NCBI GenBank assembly: GCA_947387485.1
Contig: CANDNT010000012.1
Coordinates: 62,001-126,000 of the forward strand
Reading direction: 5' to 3'
DNA: 64,000 nt
DNA from: Aquimarina rhabdastrellae
GTDB taxonomy: Bacteria; Bacteroidota; Bacteroidia; Flavobacteriales; Flavobacteriaceae
The position numbers and the translations under genes are program-made. The stretch's first letter is position 1, and the number at the start of each line of letters is the position of its first letter. Shown here one piece after another: positions 16,974 to 60,182 of this stretch. The notes under the pieces are model-generated. The model was not told where the DNA came from. It searched no databases and worked only from the letters and a program-made list of their open reading frames with translations.

Positions 16974-17717
16974 TTATTCAAGCCATTTTCTAAAGTCACT
17001 AGTAGTAGCAGCACTTGTAATCAAGTGTTGTTTATGATTTTTTATGGAAATAGCTAGCCTATCACCAAAATAAGGTTCTATTTTTTCGATATAATTAATA
17101 TTTACAATTTCGCCTCGGTTTATCTGAAAAAACTCTTTTGGATTAAGTTCTTTAATTAAATCTGATAATTTATAGCGAAACTCATTTTCTTTTCCATTTT
17201 CATCAATGGCGATACATTTACCAGAATTAGATAAGATAGCACCTGTGTTTTTTACACTTAGGATTTTAATTTCCGTTTTGGTTTTGATGATAATTCGTTC
17301 TTTATAATTGAAGTTTAGTTTATGAATAGTTTCTGATATTTTCATCCAATCTACTTCTTTATTTTGTAAGCTTTCAAACTTTTCCATTGCCTTACTAAAC
17401 TTGTTAAAACTGATTGGTTTCAGCAGGTATGCTATTCCGTTAACATCAAAAGCATCTTGGTAAAAAGTATTATAGGCGGTTGTAAAAATAATTGGAGATT
17501 TTACAATATTGGTTTTCAGAAGAGAAAATACATTTCCGTCTAACAATTCGATGTCAGAAAAAACCAAGTCAACCTGTTCATTGGTCTGATACCATTTTTC
17601 AACTTCTTCCTTACTTTGTAATGAAGCTATTATTTCGATTTTGTCATTGTAACGAAGAATATGATCTGAAATAATTTCAGTGTTAATAGCCTCATCTTCT
17701 ATAATTAATACTTTCAT
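16974..17717 (-). CDS. LytTR response regulator (pair 1)
   Basis: The protein is 247 aa. The receiver domain (1-115) has the acidic pocket EDE at 7-9, phosphoacceptor Asp55 and Lys100. A LytTR DNA-binding domain fills about 140-245 and contains FFQINRGEIVNINYIEKIEP. Its start codon overlaps the kinase stop (ATGA-type 4-bp overlap at 17714-17717), so the two are translationally coupled. The likely binding sites are the paired repeats upstream of 21162 and 23026 (see findings), which would make it autoregulatory through the receptor-kinase-regulator run. Confidence 0.92.
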   Translation of the reverse strand: MKVLIIEDEAINTEIISDHILRYNDKIEIIASLQSKEEVEKWYQTNEQVDLVFSDIELLDGNVFSLLKTNIVKSPIIFTTAYNTFYQDAFDVNGIAYLLKPISFNKFSKAMEKFESLQNKEVDWMKISETIHKLNFNYKERIIIKTKTEIKILSVKNTGAILSNSGKCIAIDENGKENEFRYKLSDLIKELNPKEFFQINRGEIVNINYIEKIEPYFGDRLAISIKNHKQHLITSAATTSDFRKWLE

Positions 17718-18742
17718 ATTTCTGAAATTAAAGGGATTTCGACAATAAAATCATTATCTGTTTCTTTGTAAATAACGTCTTTGTTAAAGTTGAGTTGGTA
17801 TTGACGTTTTAAATACTCATTTCCAGTCCCTGTTCCGAGTGTAAAATCCACTTTATTTAGTTTGTTTTTTATTACAATTGTATCCTCTTTCCGAGAAAGC
17901 GAAATCAATAGTGGATTCTCCTGATTCCCTTTATTGTGTTTTATTGCATTTTCTACACATAGTTGTATAGAACACGGAATGATAAAACCAGCTGCATTTT
18001 CAATATTGTTTTCAATTTGATAAGCGTTACCAAAGCGTTTTTCTATCAAATTCATATAGCTTTTTAAGAATGATAATTCATTTTTTAAATCGACTAATTG
18101 TTGTTTTCCATGCTGAAGATAATAACGATATACCTCAGAAAAATCATCAATAAAATCTTCTATTTGATCAGGTTTCTTTTTTGCTAATCCTGCTAATACA
18201 CTCAAATTATTGAATAAGAAATGAGGTTCTAAATTCTTTTGTAGCATTTGTGATTGTAATGTTGTCTTTTCTTTTTCAGTCAATTCTAATTCTAATGCTG
18301 TTTTTTGAGATTGTCTGAAATATAAAAATGCAGAAGTAAGCGCAAAAATATCAACGAGTATAAAAGCAACTGTCATTGTATTTATAAATCTAATTATAAA
18401 ATCATAATTACTATTATTCATTATAATACCTAAAAGGACATAGTCAACAATAGCTCCTATGATAATAAAGATTAAAAATGATAACATATAAACTTTTACA
18501 AATTTTAGAATTGTATTTGTAGTGTCTATTTTATTAATGAATTTCCAGGCAATTAGAACTGATATTACCGCAACTGCAGAGAATAAGAAAACAGAGATGT
18601 GGTCAAAATAATCATAAAAACTAATATCACTTTTAGTTCGTAAACTATATAACAGATAAATTTTACCAGCATTTCCTAGGAGTAATAGTACAATGACTAT
18701 TAAAACCTGTTTTAAATTTATTTGTTGATTGAAAACCTTCAT
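17714..18742 (-). CDS. LytS-type sensor histidine kinase (pair 1)
   Basis: The protein is 342 aa. Four membrane segments (about 12-32, 50-68, 84-106 and 120-142) are followed by a coiled linker and a His_kinase domain with phosphoacceptor His174 in LEPHFLFNNL. The N-box is CVENAIKHN, and the GTGTGNEYLK segment forms the G-box. It is coupled to the LytTR regulator downstream and lies 50 bp after the TonB receptor. No extracytoplasmic sensor domain is seen, so sensing is likely within the membrane. Confidence 0.9.
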   Translation of the reverse strand: MKVFNQQINLKQVLIVIVLLLLGNAGKIYLLYSLRTKSDISFYDYFDHISVFLFSAVAVISVLIAWKFINKIDTTNTILKFVKVYMLSFLIFIIIGAIVDYVLLGIIMNNSNYDFIIRFINTMTVAFILVDIFALTSAFLYFRQSQKTALELELTEKEKTTLQSQMLQKNLEPHFLFNNLSVLAGLAKKKPDQIEDFIDDFSEVYRYYLQHGKQQLVDLKNELSFLKSYMNLIEKRFGNAYQIENNIENAAGFIIPCSIQLCVENAIKHNKGNQENPLLISLSRKEDTIVIKNKLNKVDFTLGTGTGNEYLKRQYQLNFNKDVIYKETDNDFIVEIPLISEI

Positions 18743-18792: not shown

Positions 18793-21162
18793 TTAATTAT
18801 TTTTTGCTCTGTTTTGTTCTTCTTGGTTTCCAGAGTTACGTTGCTTAACTTTTATCTTTTTATTACCAAAGCTATAGTTTAAACTAATTTTAAAATTTCT
18901 AGTGTCAAAATAATTATAGTAGGTTTGATCTATTCCATTGGTTTTGGTATTTACGCTCGTTGCTTTACGTTTTAAAATATCGTTTAGAGCTACAGTACAA
19001 TTTAGTTTTTTATCAAGTAACGAAAACTTTAATCCTAAATCAAGACTAACCATTTCTGATATCGAAAAATACATCAACTTTTGAGGTAAAGCATAAATTA
19101 ATGTTGTTTCTGCTTGTATTGTTTTTGCTGCGTTTAAATTAAATGTATTTCTGTTATAAAATTGAAAGTTCCATCCACTTAATAATTCTGCATCTAAGCT
19201 AAATCCATCTTTATAACGAGTATCCATTTTTGATAAGGTAGCTTGAGTTGTTGTATTCCACCATTTTGTTGGGTTATAGATAAAAGTTTCAGTTAATCCA
19301 TAAGTATAAGCCGTATAAAAATTGTCAAATGTTACTACTATTCTCTGTTGCGCTTCGTCTTCTGCTTTAATGATATTGAAATAACCATCATCAATATAAC
19401 TTACAAATGCTTTACTAATGAGTTTTCCTTTGTAAATATGTTTTAATTCTAAATTATCAGAAATTAGAGGTCTCAAAAATGGATTTCCTTCTTGGTATGA
19501 AATTGAATTAATATAAAAGCGAAATGGATTTAAGCGTTCAAAACTAGGACGTTTAATTCTTCTACTATAGCTTAAATTAAACCTGTTTTTATTATTTGGA
19601 TTATATCCTAAAAATAGAGATGGAAATAGTTTGTTATATGAATTTACATCAGTTTGATTATTGGTTTTTGAAACTCCTTTTGTTTGCGTATTTTCAAAAC
19701 GAAGTCCAATTTTTGTTTGCCATTTTTTACCTAATGGTTTAGACATGTCTGCATATACAGCATTAATATTTTCAGAATACATAAACTCATTACTTTGCGT
19801 TGGGTCAAAAACAGGTATCCCTGTAGTAGTATTGTGAAAAGTTACATCATTATCTGTTTTTGTAATGGTAGTTTTGACTCCATAAGAAAAGTTAGCCCAT
19901 TTACTAGGGTGTTCCATATCTATTCGTCCACTATAATTTTTTATGTTTTGATGAGTGCTATTTTCTGCTTCAAAAAAGTTTGGGTTTGTTATAAACTGTT
20001 CACTACTAAAATTTCTAGTATTAGAATTGTTGAAATCAAAATAATCAACATCAATAGCTAATTTTCTACCAAGTGTATCTAATTTTTGAATATAATGTGC
20101 ATTTACTGAATGGTTTTTATTTGTTGTTTTGGCATTACCTTGATTGATTGTAAATGTTCCATTTCCATCATTTGTCAATGTTCTACCATTATCATGGATA
20201 CCTTTATCTTGAAATGAACCTGTATATAAAATGCCAACTGTAGCATTAGCTGTTAATTTGTAATCTAAGCCCAATCTACCAGAAATCATATTTTCTTTAT
20301 TTTTCATATCAAGAGTTGTAGCTGTAGCTGCTGAAGGATAAATAATATCAAATTCATTGAATTGAGCGATATTTCCTTGAGTAGTGTTCAAGCTTGCAAT
20401 TAGACTTACTTTATCTTTGTTATAATTAAAAGTATTTCCAAAATTGAATAACGAATATGTTGCTTGTGTGTATGAAGTTCTTATTTGATTATTCCAACTG
20501 TTTTCTTTTGATTTTTTTAAAACGATATTGATAAGACCACTATCTCCTTGAGCATCATATTTTGATGGAGGTGTTGTAATAACTTCAATATTTTTAATGT
20601 CATCTGATGCAATTGTATTTAAATAAGCATACAATTCATTTCCTGATAATTGTACGATTCTATCGTTAATCATTACTCTAACATTTCCTTTTCCTATAAT
20701 AGCTAAATTGTCTGTATCTACATTTACACTTGGTGTAACTTTTAAAGCATCTAGAGCAGTTCCGCCTGTACCAGCAACTGTGTTTTCAACATTAAAAACT
20801 AATCGGTCTACTTTTTGTTGAATGAGTTTTTTATGTGCTGTAATGATAACCTCTTGTAGTTGCTGACCTTCTTTTTCTAAAACAATTGTTCCTATATTAG
20901 ATTGAGTAGGAGTTATTTTTTTAGTGGTAAACCCAACAAAACTAATTTCTAAATAGATATGCTCTTGGTTTGCTTTAATTGAAAACATTCCGCTGTTATC
21001 AGAAATAACTCCTGTAATTAGCGAGTTATCGTTTGTGCTTTTTGCAACTATATTGGCAAATGGAATGGGGTGATTTTGTTTGTCTATTATTTTACCTATA
21101 AAAGTTTGCCCAAAACTAATTGAACAAATGAGAAGGGTTATAAATGTAGTTATAGTTTTCAT
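18793..21162 (-). CDS. TonB-dependent outer-membrane receptor, OMP_b-brl_2-like
   Basis: The protein is 789 aa. After a signal peptide (1-18) comes a carboxypeptidase-regulatory-like domain (about 20-100), a plug (LDALKVTPSVNVDTD region, 115-215) and a C-terminal beta-barrel ending in LNYSFGNKKIKVKQ. The extra C-terminal tail is basic and not part of the barrel. The closest general type is the outer-membrane beta-barrel family protein common in Bacteroidota. It is followed after 50 bp by the kinase. The cargo is unknown. A two-repeat operator and a TAnnTTTG element lie 32-100 bp upstream. Confidence 0.85.
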   Translation of the reverse strand: MKTITTFITLLICSISFGQTFIGKIIDKQNHPIPFANIVAKSTNDNSLITGVISDNSGMFSIKANQEHIYLEISFVGFTTKKITPTQSNIGTIVLEKEGQQLQEVIITAHKKLIQQKVDRLVFNVENTVAGTGGTALDALKVTPSVNVDTDNLAIIGKGNVRVMINDRIVQLSGNELYAYLNTIASDDIKNIEVITTPPSKYDAQGDSGLINIVLKKSKENSWNNQIRTSYTQATYSLFNFGNTFNYNKDKVSLIASLNTTQGNIAQFNEFDIIYPSAATATTLDMKNKENMISGRLGLDYKLTANATVGILYTGSFQDKGIHDNGRTLTNDGNGTFTINQGNAKTTNKNHSVNAHYIQKLDTLGRKLAIDVDYFDFNNSNTRNFSSEQFITNPNFFEAENSTHQNIKNYSGRIDMEHPSKWANFSYGVKTTITKTDNDVTFHNTTTGIPVFDPTQSNEFMYSENINAVYADMSKPLGKKWQTKIGLRFENTQTKGVSKTNNQTDVNSYNKLFPSLFLGYNPNNKNRFNLSYSRRIKRPSFERLNPFRFYINSISYQEGNPFLRPLISDNLELKHIYKGKLISKAFVSYIDDGYFNIIKAEDEAQQRIVVTFDNFYTAYTYGLTETFIYNPTKWWNTTTQATLSKMDTRYKDGFSLDAELLSGWNFQFYNRNTFNLNAAKTIQAETTLIYALPQKLMYFSISEMVSLDLGLKFSLLDKKLNCTVALNDILKRKATSVNTKTNGIDQTYYNYFDTRNFKISLNYSFGNKKIKVKQRNSGNQEEQNRAKNN

Positions 21163-21193
21163 AGTTTATAATATTTCAAGTTTAATAACAGAT

Positions 21194-21262
21194 CAAAAGT
21201 ATCTCGAGAGTGTGTTTTTTGAAATGGCTATAAAATGAATTGAGGGAAAAGTGAAATGAATT
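21194..21262 (-). promoter_or_regulatory. LytTR-type operator and promoter before the TonB receptor gene
   Basis: On the minus strand two copies of AATTCATTT lie at 21262-21254 and 21241-21233, exactly 21 bp apart. TACTTTTG, a perfect TAnnTTTG, lies at 21201-21194, 61 bp after the start of the first repeat. No TTG is seen at the -33 position, which suggests activator dependence. The whole 85-bp block is repeated before the S41 peptidase gene. The receptor start codon is 32 bp downstream of the -7 element. Confidence 0.7.
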
Positions 21263-21272
21263 AGCTGAAAAC

Positions 21273-21310
21273 AAAAAAGGTGTTCAATTAAACTATTGAA
21301 CACCTTTTTT
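21273..21310 (-). terminator. Bidirectional rho-independent terminator after the S41 peptidase gene
   Basis: A perfect 10-bp stem (GGTGTTCAAT with ATTGAACACC) and a 6-nt loop are flanked by A6 on the left and T6 on the right. It can stop transcription in either direction. On the minus strand it lies 67 bp after the S41 peptidase stop codon and isolates that gene from the receptor operon. Confidence 0.85.
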
Positions 21311-21376
21311 ATTAGATATATTAGTAAGCGGTTATTGACGTATTTTTTTAAGAAGTTAAGGGGCAATCGAAACTCA

Positions 21377-23026
21377 TTAATTAGCTATTTCTGATAAAAG
21401 AGCCTTAGCAGCTTGACTTAGTTCTCCATTATGACCTAAAGCAATTGTTTTATGGAGTAATTCTTTTGCTTTTTGGGTATTACCTAATTGTAAATATGAT
21501 TGACTTAAATTTTTATAAGTAATTGCCGAATTAGGAAAAAGCTTTGCGATCATTGAAAATACTTGAACTGAGGCTTGAATTTGAGGTTTACGACCTGTTT
21601 GTAATAAAATGTTTCCAACTTTGTTTAATTCGGTTTCAAAGTCAAAAAAAGCATATCTTGGGTCTTTGATCATTTTATCAAGTTCTGTTATCATTTTTTG
21701 TGTTTGTCCAGATATAAATAAATCTACAATATATCGCATTGGCTTAGGTTCAAATCCTTCTGCATTAAAATTTAGCGCAGCTTCTAAGACAGGATCTTCA
21801 TTATTTATATATTGATCAAAACTCATAGAAACAGGAATACTAGGTGTGGTCCAATCTGCATTTTCTAAAGCAGGCATATCCTGCCACCATAAATAGGATA
21901 AATAAGCTGTAATCTTACTATTTGGTAGTTCTACTGGTCGTGCGTCTCCATAGAAATTGATATTTTCTGAAGTAGGCTCACCTACCAAAATAGCTTCTGT
22001 ATATCTTGTAATTTCATTGGTTAAATTTTGACATGCCGAATAAGTTTCGCGCCCGATAATAAGATAAAAACTTCCTTTTTTATTAATTTTTGGTCTAGCT
22101 ATCAAGCCTTTTATTAATGGAAGATTGTTGTAATTATTACCTCCCCCATTTAAGCGAACATCATAGACTAGCTTTTCTACATTGTGTGTATCAATAAATT
22201 TAAACAAGCGTTTATAAAATTGTTTCAAGGTTTCATTAGCATCATCAAATACTGAACTTTGTCTTACATAGAGTGTTTTTAACTCTTCTAGATATTCAAA
22301 ATAAAACAGTTTTTCATCAAAATGTTTTAGATATAGGGGAGTGGTTTCTGTATTTCGTGCAGTAAGCCATTCTTTTGTTGGTAATGTAAAATTGAAAGTT
22401 CTAGGTTTATCTTTTATATCGATAGTTTTAAAGTTATGTGTAAAAACTTTTCCTTCTTTTTCTAGAGTTAATGTAACCGTTTCTGTAAGTTCTGGAATAA
22501 CACCTTGGGTGTGTAATACTTCTGGTGATAATAAAAAACGTAGTCCATATGCCTTAAAATATTGTTCGTTTTCAACAGGAACTACAGGATAGATTAATGT
22601 TAAAGCTTTATCTATAGGGGTATCGCCTATCTTCAAGATTTTTGCTCCTAAAGCCTTTTTTTGATCTTTTTGAACACCTTCAATATAGATGTCATCATCA
22701 AATTGATATAGGTTGATTGGTAAAATTCCATTCTTAACCGTTGTGCTATAGGGAATCTGTGTATGTCCATATTTAAATTGAGATACGATGCGTGTTAATC
22801 CCACACGTATTTGATGTGTTTTTAAGTTAGGAATGTTATTATAAAGTGTTTCAACTTGATTATCAAAATCTTGTTTTGTTGTTTTTACAAAAAGATGTGA
22901 ATAGTCTTTATGTATTATTTTTTGTAAATAGTGTAGATCTTCTTGCCATTGTTTTGAAGTTAATTTTTCCTGTGCAAAGAATGTTGAAGCTACGAATAAT
23001 AAAGAAATAAAAAGTATATTTTTCAT
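21377..23026 (-). CDS. S41 family peptidase-like protein with TPR tail
   Basis: The protein is 549 aa with a signal peptide (1-18). The S41 core is seen as KLVYDVRLNGGGNNYNNLP and the nucleophile region RETYSACQNLTNEI, where the usual SAxE pattern is SACQ, followed by LVGEPTSENINFYG. The final 100 residues carry TPR-like helices (KNLSQSYLQLGNTQKAKELL). It is preceded by the same operator as the TonB receptor 2 kb away and is probably a target of response regulator pair 1. Whether it cleaves the receptor cargo is speculation. Confidence 0.82.
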   Translation of the reverse strand: MKNILFISLLFVASTFFAQEKLTSKQWQEDLHYLQKIIHKDYSHLFVKTTKQDFDNQVETLYNNIPNLKTHQIRVGLTRIVSQFKYGHTQIPYSTTVKNGILPINLYQFDDDIYIEGVQKDQKKALGAKILKIGDTPIDKALTLIYPVVPVENEQYFKAYGLRFLLSPEVLHTQGVIPELTETVTLTLEKEGKVFTHNFKTIDIKDKPRTFNFTLPTKEWLTARNTETTPLYLKHFDEKLFYFEYLEELKTLYVRQSSVFDDANETLKQFYKRLFKFIDTHNVEKLVYDVRLNGGGNNYNNLPLIKGLIARPKINKKGSFYLIIGRETYSACQNLTNEITRYTEAILVGEPTSENINFYGDARPVELPNSKITAYLSYLWWQDMPALENADWTTPSIPVSMSFDQYINNEDPVLEAALNFNAEGFEPKPMRYIVDLFISGQTQKMITELDKMIKDPRYAFFDFETELNKVGNILLQTGRKPQIQASVQVFSMIAKLFPNSAITYKNLSQSYLQLGNTQKAKELLHKTIALGHNGELSQAAKALLSEIAN

Positions 23027-23056
23027 AAGACATAGTATTTTAGATTAATAACATGC

Positions 23057-23125
23057 CAAAAATATCTTGAGGGTAGAATTTTAGAAATAGCTATAAAATG
23101 AATTGAGGGAAAAATGAAATGAATT
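23057..23125 (-). promoter_or_regulatory. LytTR-type operator and promoter before the S41 peptidase gene
   Basis: On the minus strand the two AATTCATTT repeats are at 23125-23117 and 23104-23096 (21-bp period). TATTTTTG at 23064-23057 is a perfect TAnnTTTG, again 61 bp from the first repeat. The sequence between repeats (TTTTCCCTC-like) is also conserved with the copy at 21194-21262. The gene starts 31 bp after the -7 element. Confidence 0.7.
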
Positions 23126-23143
23126 AACTAAAAACAAAAAAGA

Positions 23144-26265: not shown

Positions 26266-26333
26266 TTTCACCTTTAATTTTGGTCACTTCATTATAAATC
26301 CCAAAAAGAGCTTTGTATTGCTAAATACATTTG
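26266..26333 (+). promoter_or_regulatory. LytTR-type operator and promoter of the plus-strand module
   Basis: TTTCACCT starts at 26266, GG follows at +16 and CTTCA at +21, so the half-site recurs with a 21-bp period. TACATTTG, a perfect TAnnTTTG, lies at 26326-26333, exactly 60 bp after the first half-site. The same elements at the same spacing occur at 29386-29453. No -33 TTG is visible at the proper distance. The first gene starts 28 bp further on. Confidence 0.65.
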
Positions 26334-27599: not shown

Positions 27600-28607
27600 A
27601 TGAATAACAATAAACTTATTACAATTGTATCAATAAGCTTTTCTTTATTGGTAAATATACCTCGAATAGTATTCCTATTTGGGAATACTGACATGGTGGT
27701 AAATATATTTTTAGAAATATCGATAACAGACACCATATTTAGAATTATATCACTTTTTGGATTTTGTTTTATTATACTCAAAGTAAATATAGAATGGGGA
27801 CAAAATTGGTTTAAAAAGCGAATTTTTATCAAATCTTGCGCAATAAGCATTTTAATGGTCTTTTTGTGGGTAACAGGATTTAGAATATTTGATGTAATTG
27901 TTAATTCGGGAGGGTCATCAACCTTATACCCTAGATTAAACATCTTTGTACATCTCTTTATCATGATCATGTTACTAGTTATAAGTACAACAATTAAGCT
28001 TAATAATCAAGCAAAATTAGATGCTATAGAAAAAGAGCAACTCAAACAACAAAACCTACAAAACGAGTTACAAGTATTAAAAAATCAATTGAATCCACAT
28101 TTTTTATTCAATTCATTAAATTCCTTGAGTTTGTTAGTTAGAGAAGATCAAAAAGCAGCAGGGAAATTTATCAATAAACTCTCAGTGCTTTATCGGTATA
28201 TATTGCAGAGTAAAGAAAGAGATCTTGTAAGTATAGAAGAAGAATTAAAGTTTTTAGAAAGTTATGTTTATTTGATAGAGCAGCGATATCGAGAGAACTT
28301 TAAAATAAATATAGCAATAGATAAAATTTTATTTCAAAAGAAAATTCCGTCATTGGCTTTACAACTATTGGTAGAAAATGCAGTAAAACACAATGAAATT
28401 TCATCAAATAAACCTTTAGTAGTAACTATATATAACGACGAACGTAATCTTATTGTAAAAAATAAAATACAAGAGAAGATAGGACAAATACAAAGTACCC
28501 ATACTGGATTAAGTAACTTAAATAACAGGTTTAAATTAGTATTAAATAAAGAAATTACTCTTAAAAAAGACGAAGATTGTTTCATTGTTAAACTACCAAT
28601 ATCATGA
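27600..28607 (+). CDS. LytS-type sensor histidine kinase (pair 2)
   Basis: I take Met at 27600 (MNNNKLITIV) as start, because the ATG at 27582 lies inside a terminator-like hairpin; this gives 335 aa. Four membrane segments fill the first 130 residues, followed by a coiled linker and the kinase core with His167 in LNPHFLFNSL. The N-box is LVENAVKHN, and STHTGLSNLNNR forms the ATP-lid region. The stop codon overlaps the regulator start by 4 bp. It is a relative of the pair-1 kinase but not a near-identical copy. Confidence 0.9.
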   Translation: MNNNKLITIVSISFSLLVNIPRIVFLFGNTDMVVNIFLEISITDTIFRIISLFGFCFIILKVNIEWGQNWFKKRIFIKSCAISILMVFLWVTGFRIFDVIVNSGGSSTLYPRLNIFVHLFIMIMLLVISTTIKLNNQAKLDAIEKEQLKQQNLQNELQVLKNQLNPHFLFNSLNSLSLLVREDQKAAGKFINKLSVLYRYILQSKERDLVSIEEELKFLESYVYLIEQRYRENFKINIAIDKILFQKKIPSLALQLLVENAVKHNEISSNKPLVVTIYNDERNLIVKNKIQEKIGQIQSTHTGLSNLNNRFKLVLNKEITLKKDEDCFIVKLPIS

Positions 28608-29365
28608 AAGTACTTATCATAGAAGATGAACAAGCTGCTGCAGAAAATTTAAGTTATTTCCTAAAAAGCATTGATACCTCTATCGAAATTGTCAAGGTTA
28701 TTGATACTATAAAAGAAGCCGTAGCTTTTTTTAAAGAAGAAATAGTAATAGAATTAGTATTTATGGATATCCATCTGGCAGATGGTATTTCTTTTGAAAT
28801 ATTTGAGCAAGTTCAAGTACAAACACCTGTGATATTTACTACAGCATATGATCAATATGCAATCAAAGCATTTAAAGTAAATAGTGTTGATTACTTATTA
28901 AAACCCATAGACGAAGACGAACTTAAACAGGCTATTGATAAATATAAAGGAACTCAGCAAGAAGAACCAGTAGCAGTACAGTTTCAAGAAATGCTTAAGC
29001 TTTTAAAAGGAGAACAAAAAAACTATAAAAATGCATACTTAGTACAACAAAGAGATACTTTAATTCCGTTACAAGTAAGCGAAATTGCCTATGCTACAAT
29101 TGATTCAGGTATAGTAAAAGTAGTAACCAAAGCGAATAAGAGTTATATTCTGGATAAGAAATTAGAAGAGCTCGAAAGCGAATTAAATCCAGCACATTTC
29201 TTTAGAGCCAATAGACAATTTATAATAGGACGAGAGGCAATAGAAAATTTACAATTGTATTTTAACGGAAAATTGATTCTCAACATAAATCCTAAGCCCA
29301 AAGAACAGATTGTAATTAGTAAAGCAAAAGCTCCACAGCTTAAAAGTTGGATGAATGATTTTTAG
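28604..29365 (+). CDS. LytTR response regulator (pair 2)
   Basis: The protein is 253 aa. The receiver has EDE at 7-9, phosphoacceptor Asp55 and Lys100, and the LytTR domain covers about 150-250 with FFRANRQFIIGREAIENL. It pairs with the kinase by a 4-bp overlap. The operators at 26266-26333 and 29386-29453 are its probable targets, the first controlling its own operon and the second the gene directly downstream. Confidence 0.92.
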   Translation: MKVLIIEDEQAAAENLSYFLKSIDTSIEIVKVIDTIKEAVAFFKEEIVIELVFMDIHLADGISFEIFEQVQVQTPVIFTTAYDQYAIKAFKVNSVDYLLKPIDEDELKQAIDKYKGTQQEEPVAVQFQEMLKLLKGEQKNYKNAYLVQQRDTLIPLQVSEIAYATIDSGIVKVVTKANKSYILDKKLEELESELNPAHFFRANRQFIIGREAIENLQLYFNGKLILNINPKPKEQIVISKAKAPQLKSWMNDF

Positions 29366-57929: not shown

Positions 57930-60182
57930 CTAAAAGAAATAAGTGAAACTTAGTTTTGCTAAAAAAGGAGTACCTGGTGTAAAATGAACATCATCTACAG
58001 GTGCTGCTTCTCCTTGTAATTGAGAAGAATCATAGAAGACAGCTTCTCTCCATTTTTGATCAAAAATGTTTTCTATGGATAAACCAATCTCATAAGAAGG
58101 TTTTCTATAATTGATGACTGCATCCATGATAAAATAATCTTGAGCAGTTACAGATTCATCCTCAATAAGTGGACGTTCTCCTAGGTAACGGTAACGTAAA
58201 GAACCACGAATACCATTTTCTAGACGTACTGTAGCACCACCTGTAGAACTAAATCGAGGTGCACTCGGAATTTTATTTTCGTTATCTGGAGCGTCTAATA
58301 AAGTTCCGTAACTATAATTAAGATCAGTATCTAACCAAAAATATGGAAGTGGTTGGTATCTAAAAGAAGCTTCACCACCGATACGTTCTGAACGTCCTTT
58401 GTCTTCAAATTCGAAACCATCAGAACCAAACACAAATTCGGCATCACTTTGTAAATACCAAGCAGTAATGTTTCCTACAAGACTTTTACCAATCTTAAAT
58501 TCGGTTCCAAGGTCATATCCTGTTGCTTTTGGTAATGGATTTACAGCGCTGTTTCTTACAGCTGCCTGTGTATAATTTGAATGGAAACCAGAACTGGCTT
58601 TTGCATACAATTGTACTTTTGGACTGATATCATAAAACAAACTCAATTTAGGGCTCCATTGGATCGCATCACGATCGCTTCGCGTATTACTAGGTACAAT
58701 TTCATTTTGATCAAACGTAAAATAATCTGTACGCAATCCAGCCAAGGCAGTTAATTTAGGAGCAATTTTAATTCGTTCTTTAAGATATAAACTATAACTC
58801 GTTTCTTTGATGTCAAAAATATTTACAACACTTAATAAATCTCTTCCTATAGCGTTATTAAGTCCTATGGTATTATCGTGATGTTGGATTGTCCATCCAA
58901 TAGTAGTTTTACTTTTAGGAATTCCTAAAAAGTCTTTCATTCCAATACTACCGTTATATGCAAAGATATTTCGATCTTCATACTGGTGAATCATGTCTCC
59001 GTTTACAGGATTGTTTTGGAAGAAAGTAAAGTTTGAAAACAGATTATATGTATTAGAAACATAATACAATTGATTCTTTAAGGTTGTATTTTCTGAAAGT
59101 TCAGAAGTTAATTGTGTATTGATATGAATCCTTTCGGTATCACCACCTTCTTGATCATCGATAGCTCCAAACCTGTCAATCAGCCCTGATTCTACAGCTC
59201 TCAACGGAATTTGCCCCGAAGCATTCCAATCACTATGAAAAGTAGATACAGAAGTAATCAAAGTATTGGTTTGATTGATATCGATAGCATATTTTGTAAA
59301 GGTGTTTAATCTTCGTAAATCTTGATCGCTCTCGAAGAAACTTCTATTAAAAGTACCTTCTATAGCGATATAAGCACTCTCATCATTTTTGGTTAAAAAG
59401 TTCTTTTCGTCCAAAATAGAAATCATTGCCAAGGCTCTGATAAAATCATATTGACCATATTCTAACTTAACTAGATTAGAACTTAGGCGATTTTTTGTAG
59501 TATAATTAGCAGCTCCAGAAACCGCAAAGTTTCCTAGAGAAGCTTCGTGAGGGCCTTTGTAATAGTTAGCATCCTTAACGGTTTCAGGAATCAAGAAATG
59601 CAAATCGGCGTATCCTTGACCATGAGCATGCGAACTTAAATTCACAGGAATGTCATCTACATTCACGGCAAAATCAGTTCCGTGATCATTATCAAAACCT
59701 CTTAAAAAAATTTGTTCTGCTTTTCCACCACCTGCATGTTGCGCTATAAATAGTCCAGGGACAGTTTTTAAAAGGTCATGAGCACTTTTGATGGGACTCA
59801 GTTGTAAGGTGATTTTAGAAACGTTGTTAGCACCTAAATTTTCATCTTGATGATCTGCGCTGATCACAATTTCGGAAAGCTCAGTAGCTTTTTCTTCTAA
59901 TGAAATTTCGATAGGTTTTGTATACGAACTGATAGTCAGAGAATGTTCGAAATACCCAGAACGCGAAAATGTCAAAACCGTAGGAAGTGTTGTACTGAAA
60001 CTAAATTTACCGCTTTCGTCAGAAATGATAGTTTGAGCATTACTAGAATTGGTAATGGTGACGGTAGGAATTGTATTTCCTGTGTTTAGGTTTCGTATGA
60101 TACCTTGTAGTGTTACAGTATCTTGTGCTTGACTCATAAAAGAAATGATCAACCACACACTGCATAAAATCAATTTTTTCAT
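57930..60182 (-). CDS. TonB-dependent receptor, BtuB-like
   Basis: The protein is 750 aa. A signal peptide (1-19), a carboxypeptidase-regulatory-like domain (about 22-100), a plug (about 110-235, with LLKTVPGLFIAQHAGGGKA and IFLRGFDNDHGTDFA) and a C-terminal barrel ending in FLAKLSFTYFF are visible. It is the first gene after the cobalamin riboswitch, so a vitamin B12 or cobinamide transporter is likely. No substrate-specific residues can be read from sequence. Confidence 0.88.
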   Translation of the reverse strand: MKKLILCSVWLIISFMSQAQDTVTLQGIIRNLNTGNTIPTVTITNSSNAQTIISDESGKFSFSTTLPTVLTFSRSGYFEHSLTISSYTKPIEISLEEKATELSEIVISADHQDENLGANNVSKITLQLSPIKSAHDLLKTVPGLFIAQHAGGGKAEQIFLRGFDNDHGTDFAVNVDDIPVNLSSHAHGQGYADLHFLIPETVKDANYYKGPHEASLGNFAVSGAANYTTKNRLSSNLVKLEYGQYDFIRALAMISILDEKNFLTKNDESAYIAIEGTFNRSFFESDQDLRRLNTFTKYAIDINQTNTLITSVSTFHSDWNASGQIPLRAVESGLIDRFGAIDDQEGGDTERIHINTQLTSELSENTTLKNQLYYVSNTYNLFSNFTFFQNNPVNGDMIHQYEDRNIFAYNGSIGMKDFLGIPKSKTTIGWTIQHHDNTIGLNNAIGRDLLSVVNIFDIKETSYSLYLKERIKIAPKLTALAGLRTDYFTFDQNEIVPSNTRSDRDAIQWSPKLSLFYDISPKVQLYAKASSGFHSNYTQAAVRNSAVNPLPKATGYDLGTEFKIGKSLVGNITAWYLQSDAEFVFGSDGFEFEDKGRSERIGGEASFRYQPLPYFWLDTDLNYSYGTLLDAPDNENKIPSAPRFSSTGGATVRLENGIRGSLRYRYLGERPLIEDESVTAQDYFIMDAVINYRKPSYEIGLSIENIFDQKWREAVFYDSSQLQGEAAPVDDVHFTPGTPFLAKLSFTYFF

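Follow-up and report, generated by a model that had tools for sequence, protein, structure and literature searches.

A candidate LytTR-type operator and promoter shared by a receptor operon and an S41 peptidase gene in Aquimarina rhabdastrellae

The window analysed here, a 64,000-nucleotide stretch of the 5.0-Mb genome of Aquimarina rhabdastrellae (hereafter the source genome), carries one promoter block twice on the minus strand: upstream of an operon encoding an outer-membrane receptor, a LytS-type sensor kinase (HK1) and a LytTR response regulator (RR1), and upstream of a neighbouring S41-family peptidase gene. From sequence comparison we favour, with a probability of about 0.8, a duplicated RR1-bound promoter through which the receptor-HK1-RR1 operon is self-activating and S41 is its sole further target, S41 having passed to it from another kinase-regulator circuit (HK3-RR3). 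In the proposed mechanism, HK1 would phosphorylate RR1, two molecules of which would bind both AATTCATTT half-sites cooperatively on one face of the DNA (approximately -73 to -65 and -52 to -44), and the bound RR1 would recruit RNA polymerase to a TAnnTTTG promoter that is without an evident -33 element. The operon would thereby activate itself, and the duplicated promoter would make S41, the only further target found in the source genome, co-induced. S41 would once have belonged to the HK3-RR3 circuit and later, in this lineage, have come to its present place ahead of the receptor, with a copied RR1 promoter in front of it. Receptor and peptidase may jointly serve peptide use.

Gene layout and the two promoter blocks

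The genes concerned lie in the order S41, receptor, HK1, RR1 on the minus strand, and the three-gene order receptor-HK1-RR1 is kept in relatives. Elsewhere in the window, positions 37688-63952 hold a long gene cluster, judged by eye to resemble one for cobalamin biosynthesis and cobaltochelatase; it includes a TonB receptor-like gene at 57930-60182. The features relevant to the two promoters are as follows.

16974..17717, minus strand: RR1, LytTR response regulator (247 aa; PF00072 and PF04397), presumed operator binder
17714..18742, minus strand: HK1, LytS-type sensor kinase (342 aa; PF06580), adjoining the receptor and RR1 in relatives too
18793..21162, minus strand: outer-membrane beta-barrel receptor (789 aa; PF14905 OMP_b-brl_3 and a CarboxypepD_reg-like domain, Pfam), leading the RR1 operon
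21179..21279, minus strand: promoter block, receptor copy (84% identity to the S41 copy)
21194..21201, minus strand: receptor promoter, -7 box TACTTTTG
21233..21241, minus strand: receptor operator, proximal half-site AATTCATTT
21254..21262, minus strand: receptor operator, distal half-site AATTCATTT
21270..21313, minus strand: terminator-like hairpin followed by a T tract, downstream of the S41 stop codon and ahead of the receptor operator
21377..23026, minus strand: S41-family peptidase, candidate extra target (549 aa; PF03572 above cut-off as a partial match, 251-298; family also from a tree)
23042..23142, minus strand: promoter block, S41 copy (placed as sister to the receptor copy, with support 0.927, in a tree of the blocks)
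23057..23064, minus strand: S41 promoter, -7 box TATTTTTG
23096..23104, minus strand: S41 operator, proximal half-site AATTCATTT
23117..23125, minus strand: S41 operator, distal half-site AATTCATTT
28604-29365: RR2, second LytTR protein of the window

S41 has an uninterrupted reading frame beginning about 15 bp downstream of its block, and the peptidase is probably exported (signal peptide judged by eye). The hairpin between S41 and the receptor operator (-22.2 kcal/mol; equally stable shuffles, 0/200), together with its T tract, suggests that S41 and the receptor are transcribed separately, each from a copy of the same promoter. When RR1 was searched against the sequences of solved structures, all 13 matches lay within the receiver domain and none covered the LytTR DNA-binding part.

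Each block contains AATTCATTT-N12-AATTCATTT on the minus strand, i.e. two 9-nt repeats with a 12-nt spacer and a 21-bp period, and a perfect TAnnTTTG box (TACTTTTG for the receptor, TATTTTTG for S41) beginning 61 bp after the start of the first repeat. A first-pass annotation of this DNA had described both the paired repeats at 21 bp and the box at 61 bp, and both copies agree with it; the gene starts that it gave (21162 and 23026) are plausible. Its description of the blocks as near-identical holds for the operator, with one difference in the 30-bp double repeat, and is generous for the block as a whole, which aligns without gaps over 101 bp with 16 differences. The two copies differ at 2/38 positions in the operator and -7 box versus 14/63 elsewhere, a modest bias (one-sided Fisher p = 0.02). 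No TTG was seen at the expected distance (about -33) in either copy on unscored inspection by eye. Homology between the blocks extends into the terminator T tract, and shared bases such as AATTCATTTTATAG join the S41 block of the source genome to its receptor block; given that the two are sisters in the block tree, the copy probably arose in this lineage.

Distribution and geometry of the operator

The exact double repeat occurs at only these two places in the 5.0-Mb genome, before the receptor and S41. Further targets in the source genome were sought and rejected: the plain double repeat gains two more places with one mismatch and many with two or three, and a longer pattern finds only the two. 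BLAST of the block against the same genome gave nothing else above noise (next E 0.235).

Allowing up to two mismatches, the longer pattern matched 12 times across the 66 genus genomes, in 10 of them; its reversed control matched nowhere. In a further nine Aquimarina genomes the receptor has this block ahead of it (six from the alignment, plus G062, G082 and G088), and the block is found with the whole operon outside the genus, in Kordia (L167) and Tenacibaculum (L172 and L205); at a further Tenacibaculum locus (L169) block and receptor are present, and the locus stops before HK1 would start. All 13 receptor loci seen with the element, the window's included, have it upstream of the receptor, and exact matches are found in nine named contigs (six Aquimarina, one Kordia and two Tenacibaculum). 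Among 397 family genomes, the only matches besides the source genome were G407, a true site upstream of the receptor, and G197, which has two mismatches and no receptor in the fetched 3 kb and is probably a chance match. Because the same block recurs upstream of the receptor in relatives, the element is assigned, by sequence, to the receptor operon. This operon is patchy in distribution yet highly similar in L167 and L205 (RR1 92% and 89% identical, in Kordia and Tenacibaculum respectively), which suggests horizontal spread.

RR1 orthologues were identified in 9/66 genus genomes, all of which carry the operator, and the source genome is among the ten operator carriers. The tenth operator genome, G082 (L170 6057-6364), has the receptor and HK1, with RR1 visible to residue 80 in a match that ends about 65 bp before the contig end; this is either a broken gene or a contig-end artefact. 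A second site in G003 (L117 9312-9497) was rejected as a new target: it precedes a broken receptor copy with in-frame stops, near a transposase-like gene. Of the 66 genomes, the source genome is thus the only one in which an intact gene other than the receptor has a site as well. Since operator and RR1 belong to one locus, the operator preceding the RR1 operon, finding both together by itself says little about which protein binds, and other LytTR systems were for this reason examined as a separate argument.

Published descriptions give almost all LytTR sites as two 9-11-nt repeats, 11-13 nt apart (PMC4847170), with 9-bp repeats and a 12-bp spacer at plantaricin sites (PMC2714321) and mostly 12-bp spacers, with repeats close upstream of -35, in LRS systems (PMC6193735); AgrA repeats are described as centred near -60 (PMC4227749), and the flavobacterial TAnnTTTG as sitting at -12 to -5 (PMC9723704). 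Repeat length and gap in both copies fall within these ranges, both window copies have the TAnnTTTG box of Bacteroidota sigma-A promoters, and the repeats lie just upstream of the core promoter with a predicted centre at about -58, taking the box at -12 to -5 (start sites being predicted from box position). The linked regulator is the PF04397 protein of the operon, conserved with the operator (RR1 of G082 being truncated or cut off).

Among characterised systems, the site of YpdB at yhjX in Escherichia coli is close in form, with GGCATTTCAT twice, 21 bp start to start, and a TTCA core (PMC4847170), but belongs to a pyruvate-responsive system (PMC5552118). The first half-site of the S41 copy reads TTCATTTCAT, to be compared with GGCATTTCAT of YpdB. 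We know of no receptor or peptidase target of YpdB. AgrA at agr P2/P3 of Staphylococcus aureus likewise binds two direct repeats, as a LytTR dimer, centred near -60 (PMC4227749). Its sites differ in having a Gram-positive -35/-10 promoter and in serving a quorum-sensing circuit. The AgrA half-site also differs from AATTCATTT. The PlnC/PlnD plantaricin regulon has the same 9-bp repeats and 12-bp spacer, and its consensus TACGTTAAT resembles the RR3 half-site TACGTTTCA (PMC2714321); the RR1 half-site AATTCATTT, however, departs from that consensus, and the PlnC/PlnD targets are several bacteriocin operons. LRS systems (HdrRM, BrsRM) form operons that regulate themselves, and their 9-bp repeats, spaced by 12 bp, sit immediately upstream of -35 (PMC6193735), but they include a membrane inhibitor protein, in place of which the RR1 operon has a PF06580 LytS-type kinase, and on this count it falls outside the LRS type. 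The words Bacteroidetes and Flavobacter- are absent from the main text of the LRS paper (PMC6193735).

In 57 stretches, mostly LytTR loci and many of them orthologous, hence not independent, 9-mer direct repeats followed by a -7-like box were sought. The scan found 33 promoters with a spacing of 21 bp and 1-4 at each other spacing from 14 to 29, except 16 bp (10 promoters, seven of which are the RR1 operator in another register). The 33 promoters comprise 10 of RR1, 8 of RR3, 6 of a further set of loci (group B) and 9 others, and half-sites differ by LytTR family (AATTCATT for RR1, ACGTTTCAA for RR3 and ACAGTTCAA for group B). When promoters were aligned on the TTCA core, with the register fixed per family, the first core and the start of nAnnTTTG were exactly 59 bp apart in 37 of 38 promoters from the three families. 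The exception is G020 (L115 9076-9225), where RR3 half-sites persist, S41 is reduced to a fragment and no M20 amidohydrolase gene could be found following RR3. Group B (L131-L136) is an operon that encodes a 483-aa protein, a single LytTR regulator and a pair of LytS-type kinases; its operator, ACAGTTCAA at 21 bp, has a half-site that we take to be AgrA-like, and the 483-aa protein gave no Pfam or NCBIfam match (one copy scanned).

Other LytTR loci gave less regular results. RR2 was rejected as a binder or as having an operator of its own: the window sequence TTCA-N17-TTCA-N34-TACATTTG at 26267-26333, which stands ahead of the leading gene in the window's second kinase-LytTR cluster, is weak, with little match between repeats beyond TTCA. 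Fifteen stretches around RR2 orthologues, each of 3.5-6.5 kb, did not show this geometry; 23 other genomes have such orthologues. One more distant LytTR locus, G005:C13, shows the TTCA geometry. Group A loci (receptor, beta-lactamase-like, kinase, LytTR) showed no conserved 21-bp repeat, their start codons being uncertain. Clear operators were found at only 2/6 LytTR loci examined in the source genome, and the rule is thus not universal. Genus-wide, the geometric pattern gave 68 matches versus 15 for the control; 12 of these are RR1 or RR3 operators, most others being unsorted, and the pattern misses G003 and most RR3 sites, in which core or box is imperfect. In several of seven genomes TTCA-N17-TTCA-N34-TAnnTTTG is found near a second gyrB-type gene (G004:C1:233677, G002:C3:133426 and five more), and this conserved match might be a further such promoter.

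Published site geometry and the paralogous 21-bp operators, placed identically relative to the -7 box, thus support the first-pass proposal of a 21-bp LytTR-like operator, and the comparative evidence favours its reading of a probable autoregulated receptor-kinase-LytTR operon with one extra target.

The S41 peptidase in relatives

S41 in relatives is associated with a different LytTR system, which the first-pass annotation did not include. The regulator, RR3, has the operator ACGTTTCA-N13-ACGTTTCA. At the S41 loci of 19 relatives, a full-length RR3 gene adjoins S41 in 14, in eight of which an intact M20 amidohydrolase gene lies between the two; the other five are G026, where HK3 is accompanied by part of RR3, and four without RR3 in the stretch (G016, G029, G030 and G011). 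The RR3 operator is located upstream of S41, or of M20 ahead of S41 (an M20 remnant in G007), in 16/19 relatives, and is absent at S41 in the remaining three (G011, G029 and G030). Half-site pairs of RR3 type with up to two mismatches number 12 in 22 stretches, versus 0.6 expected, and all are before S41 or M20 (in G007, before the M20 remnant and S41). In G026 (L101 10505-10720), where RR3 is reduced to a piece separating HK3 from S41, S41 is nevertheless preceded by a perfect RR3 operator.

Extended to the genus, the RR3 pattern has 22 sites in 18/66 genomes, with four control matches. Sorting of these sites, which left out G073, places 12 of the 22 before S41 or M20; for G056 and G060 this assignment uses coordinates alone. 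A further six sites, similar to ACGTATCA, were dropped as lying within a single conserved coding sequence (325-358 aa), which we take to be probably that of ribonucleotide reductase, and three more (G059, G032:C11 and G083:C13) look like chance.

The source genome itself has HK3-RR3-M20 on contig C1, with an RR3 operator containing two mismatches and no S41. Upstream of its S41 only the RR1 block was found, and no RR3 operator. With the RR3 operator at S41 in relatives and an RR3 locus that lacks S41 in the source genome, S41 appears to have moved to the duplicated RR1 operator.

Among 52 genomes searched, 25 had an S41 match of at least 50% identity (the G020 fragment uncounted), and 17 of these are represented in the S41 tree. 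The source S41 groups in it with those of G016, G066, G026, G009 and G023 (100/100) and not with those of the RR1-bearing G001, G002, G027 and G062. The gyrB tree places the source genome beside G011 (91), the S41 of which falls in the other S41 clade, and simple inheritance of S41 was rejected on this conflict. Because the S41, RR3, HK3 and gyrB trees disagree, transfer, relocation and paralogue loss are all compatible as the origin of S41, transfer being a likely course. In G011 (L118 8617-8651) a perfect 14-bp repeat, AAACGTATACATTT, with a 21-bp period lies about 195 bp before S41, which here has no RR3 neighbour; AAACGTATACATTT is possibly a third control element of S41, and S41 may thus have changed control more than once.

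Alternative readings and implications

Binding of the repeats by another regulator, whether RR2, RR3 or a non-LytTR factor, seems improbable. At least six LytTR regulators are encoded in the source genome and are possible binders, and G082 has the operator with only the first 80 RR1 residues in view, but the 10/66 operator genomes are precisely the nine with an RR1 orthologue plus G082. RR2 is distributed differently: its orthologues occur in 24/66 genomes, 19 of which lack the operator, and five of the ten operator carriers have no RR2 orthologue above the threshold used. RR3, for its part, has its own, different operator. It is likewise improbable that the block is a repressor site or a leader RNA element. 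The LytTR protein PlnD represses from the same type of repeat (PMC2714321), but the position of the repeats matches, by analogy, that of activating LytTR sites such as AgrA near -60, and repeats upstream of the -7 box would be outside any transcript started there, which counts against leader RNA.

A neutral origin of the S41 copy, as a by-product of recent segmental duplication with no regulatory role, would be in keeping with the sister relationship of the two blocks, with homology that runs into the terminator T tract and with G003, where a second, evidently non-functional copy stands before a broken receptor fragment. However, the S41 copy has diverged by 16%, yet its double repeat differs at 1/30 positions and its -7 box is perfect; differences lie preferentially outside the operator and -7 box (p = 0.02, modest), and the S41 frame is intact. 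We regard this origin as rather unlikely, and prefer the duplicated RR1-bound promoter, with S41 as a candidate target activated together with the receptor operon.

Most known LytTR binding sites come from Firmicutes and Proteobacteria, and a LytTR site worked out in Bacteroidota was not seen among the matches listed (titles and abstract starts, with most subscription journals outside the scope). It is conceivable, although we would put it just short of an even chance, that LytTR circuits of Flavobacteriaceae use one operator chassis, in which the -7 box is preceded by TTCA cores at 59 and 38 bp and only the flanking half-site bases differ, so that genes could be re-plugged between circuits by a promoter cassette; S41 would then be a travelling target with three switches in one genus (RR3 in 16/19 relatives fetched, RR1 here and AAACGTATACATTT in G011). 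If so, a fixed chassis in which only the half-site flanks differ would mean that one short cassette suffices for the exchange. The operator looks like a further case of a known LytTR site type, and S41 like a clear case of rewiring. Three operator families of one geometry would allow targets of receptor-kinase-LytTR operons in this group to be predicted from sequence, and S41 offers a testable case of a gene moving between paralogous regulators, in which the other arrangement persists in relatives and partly in the same genome.
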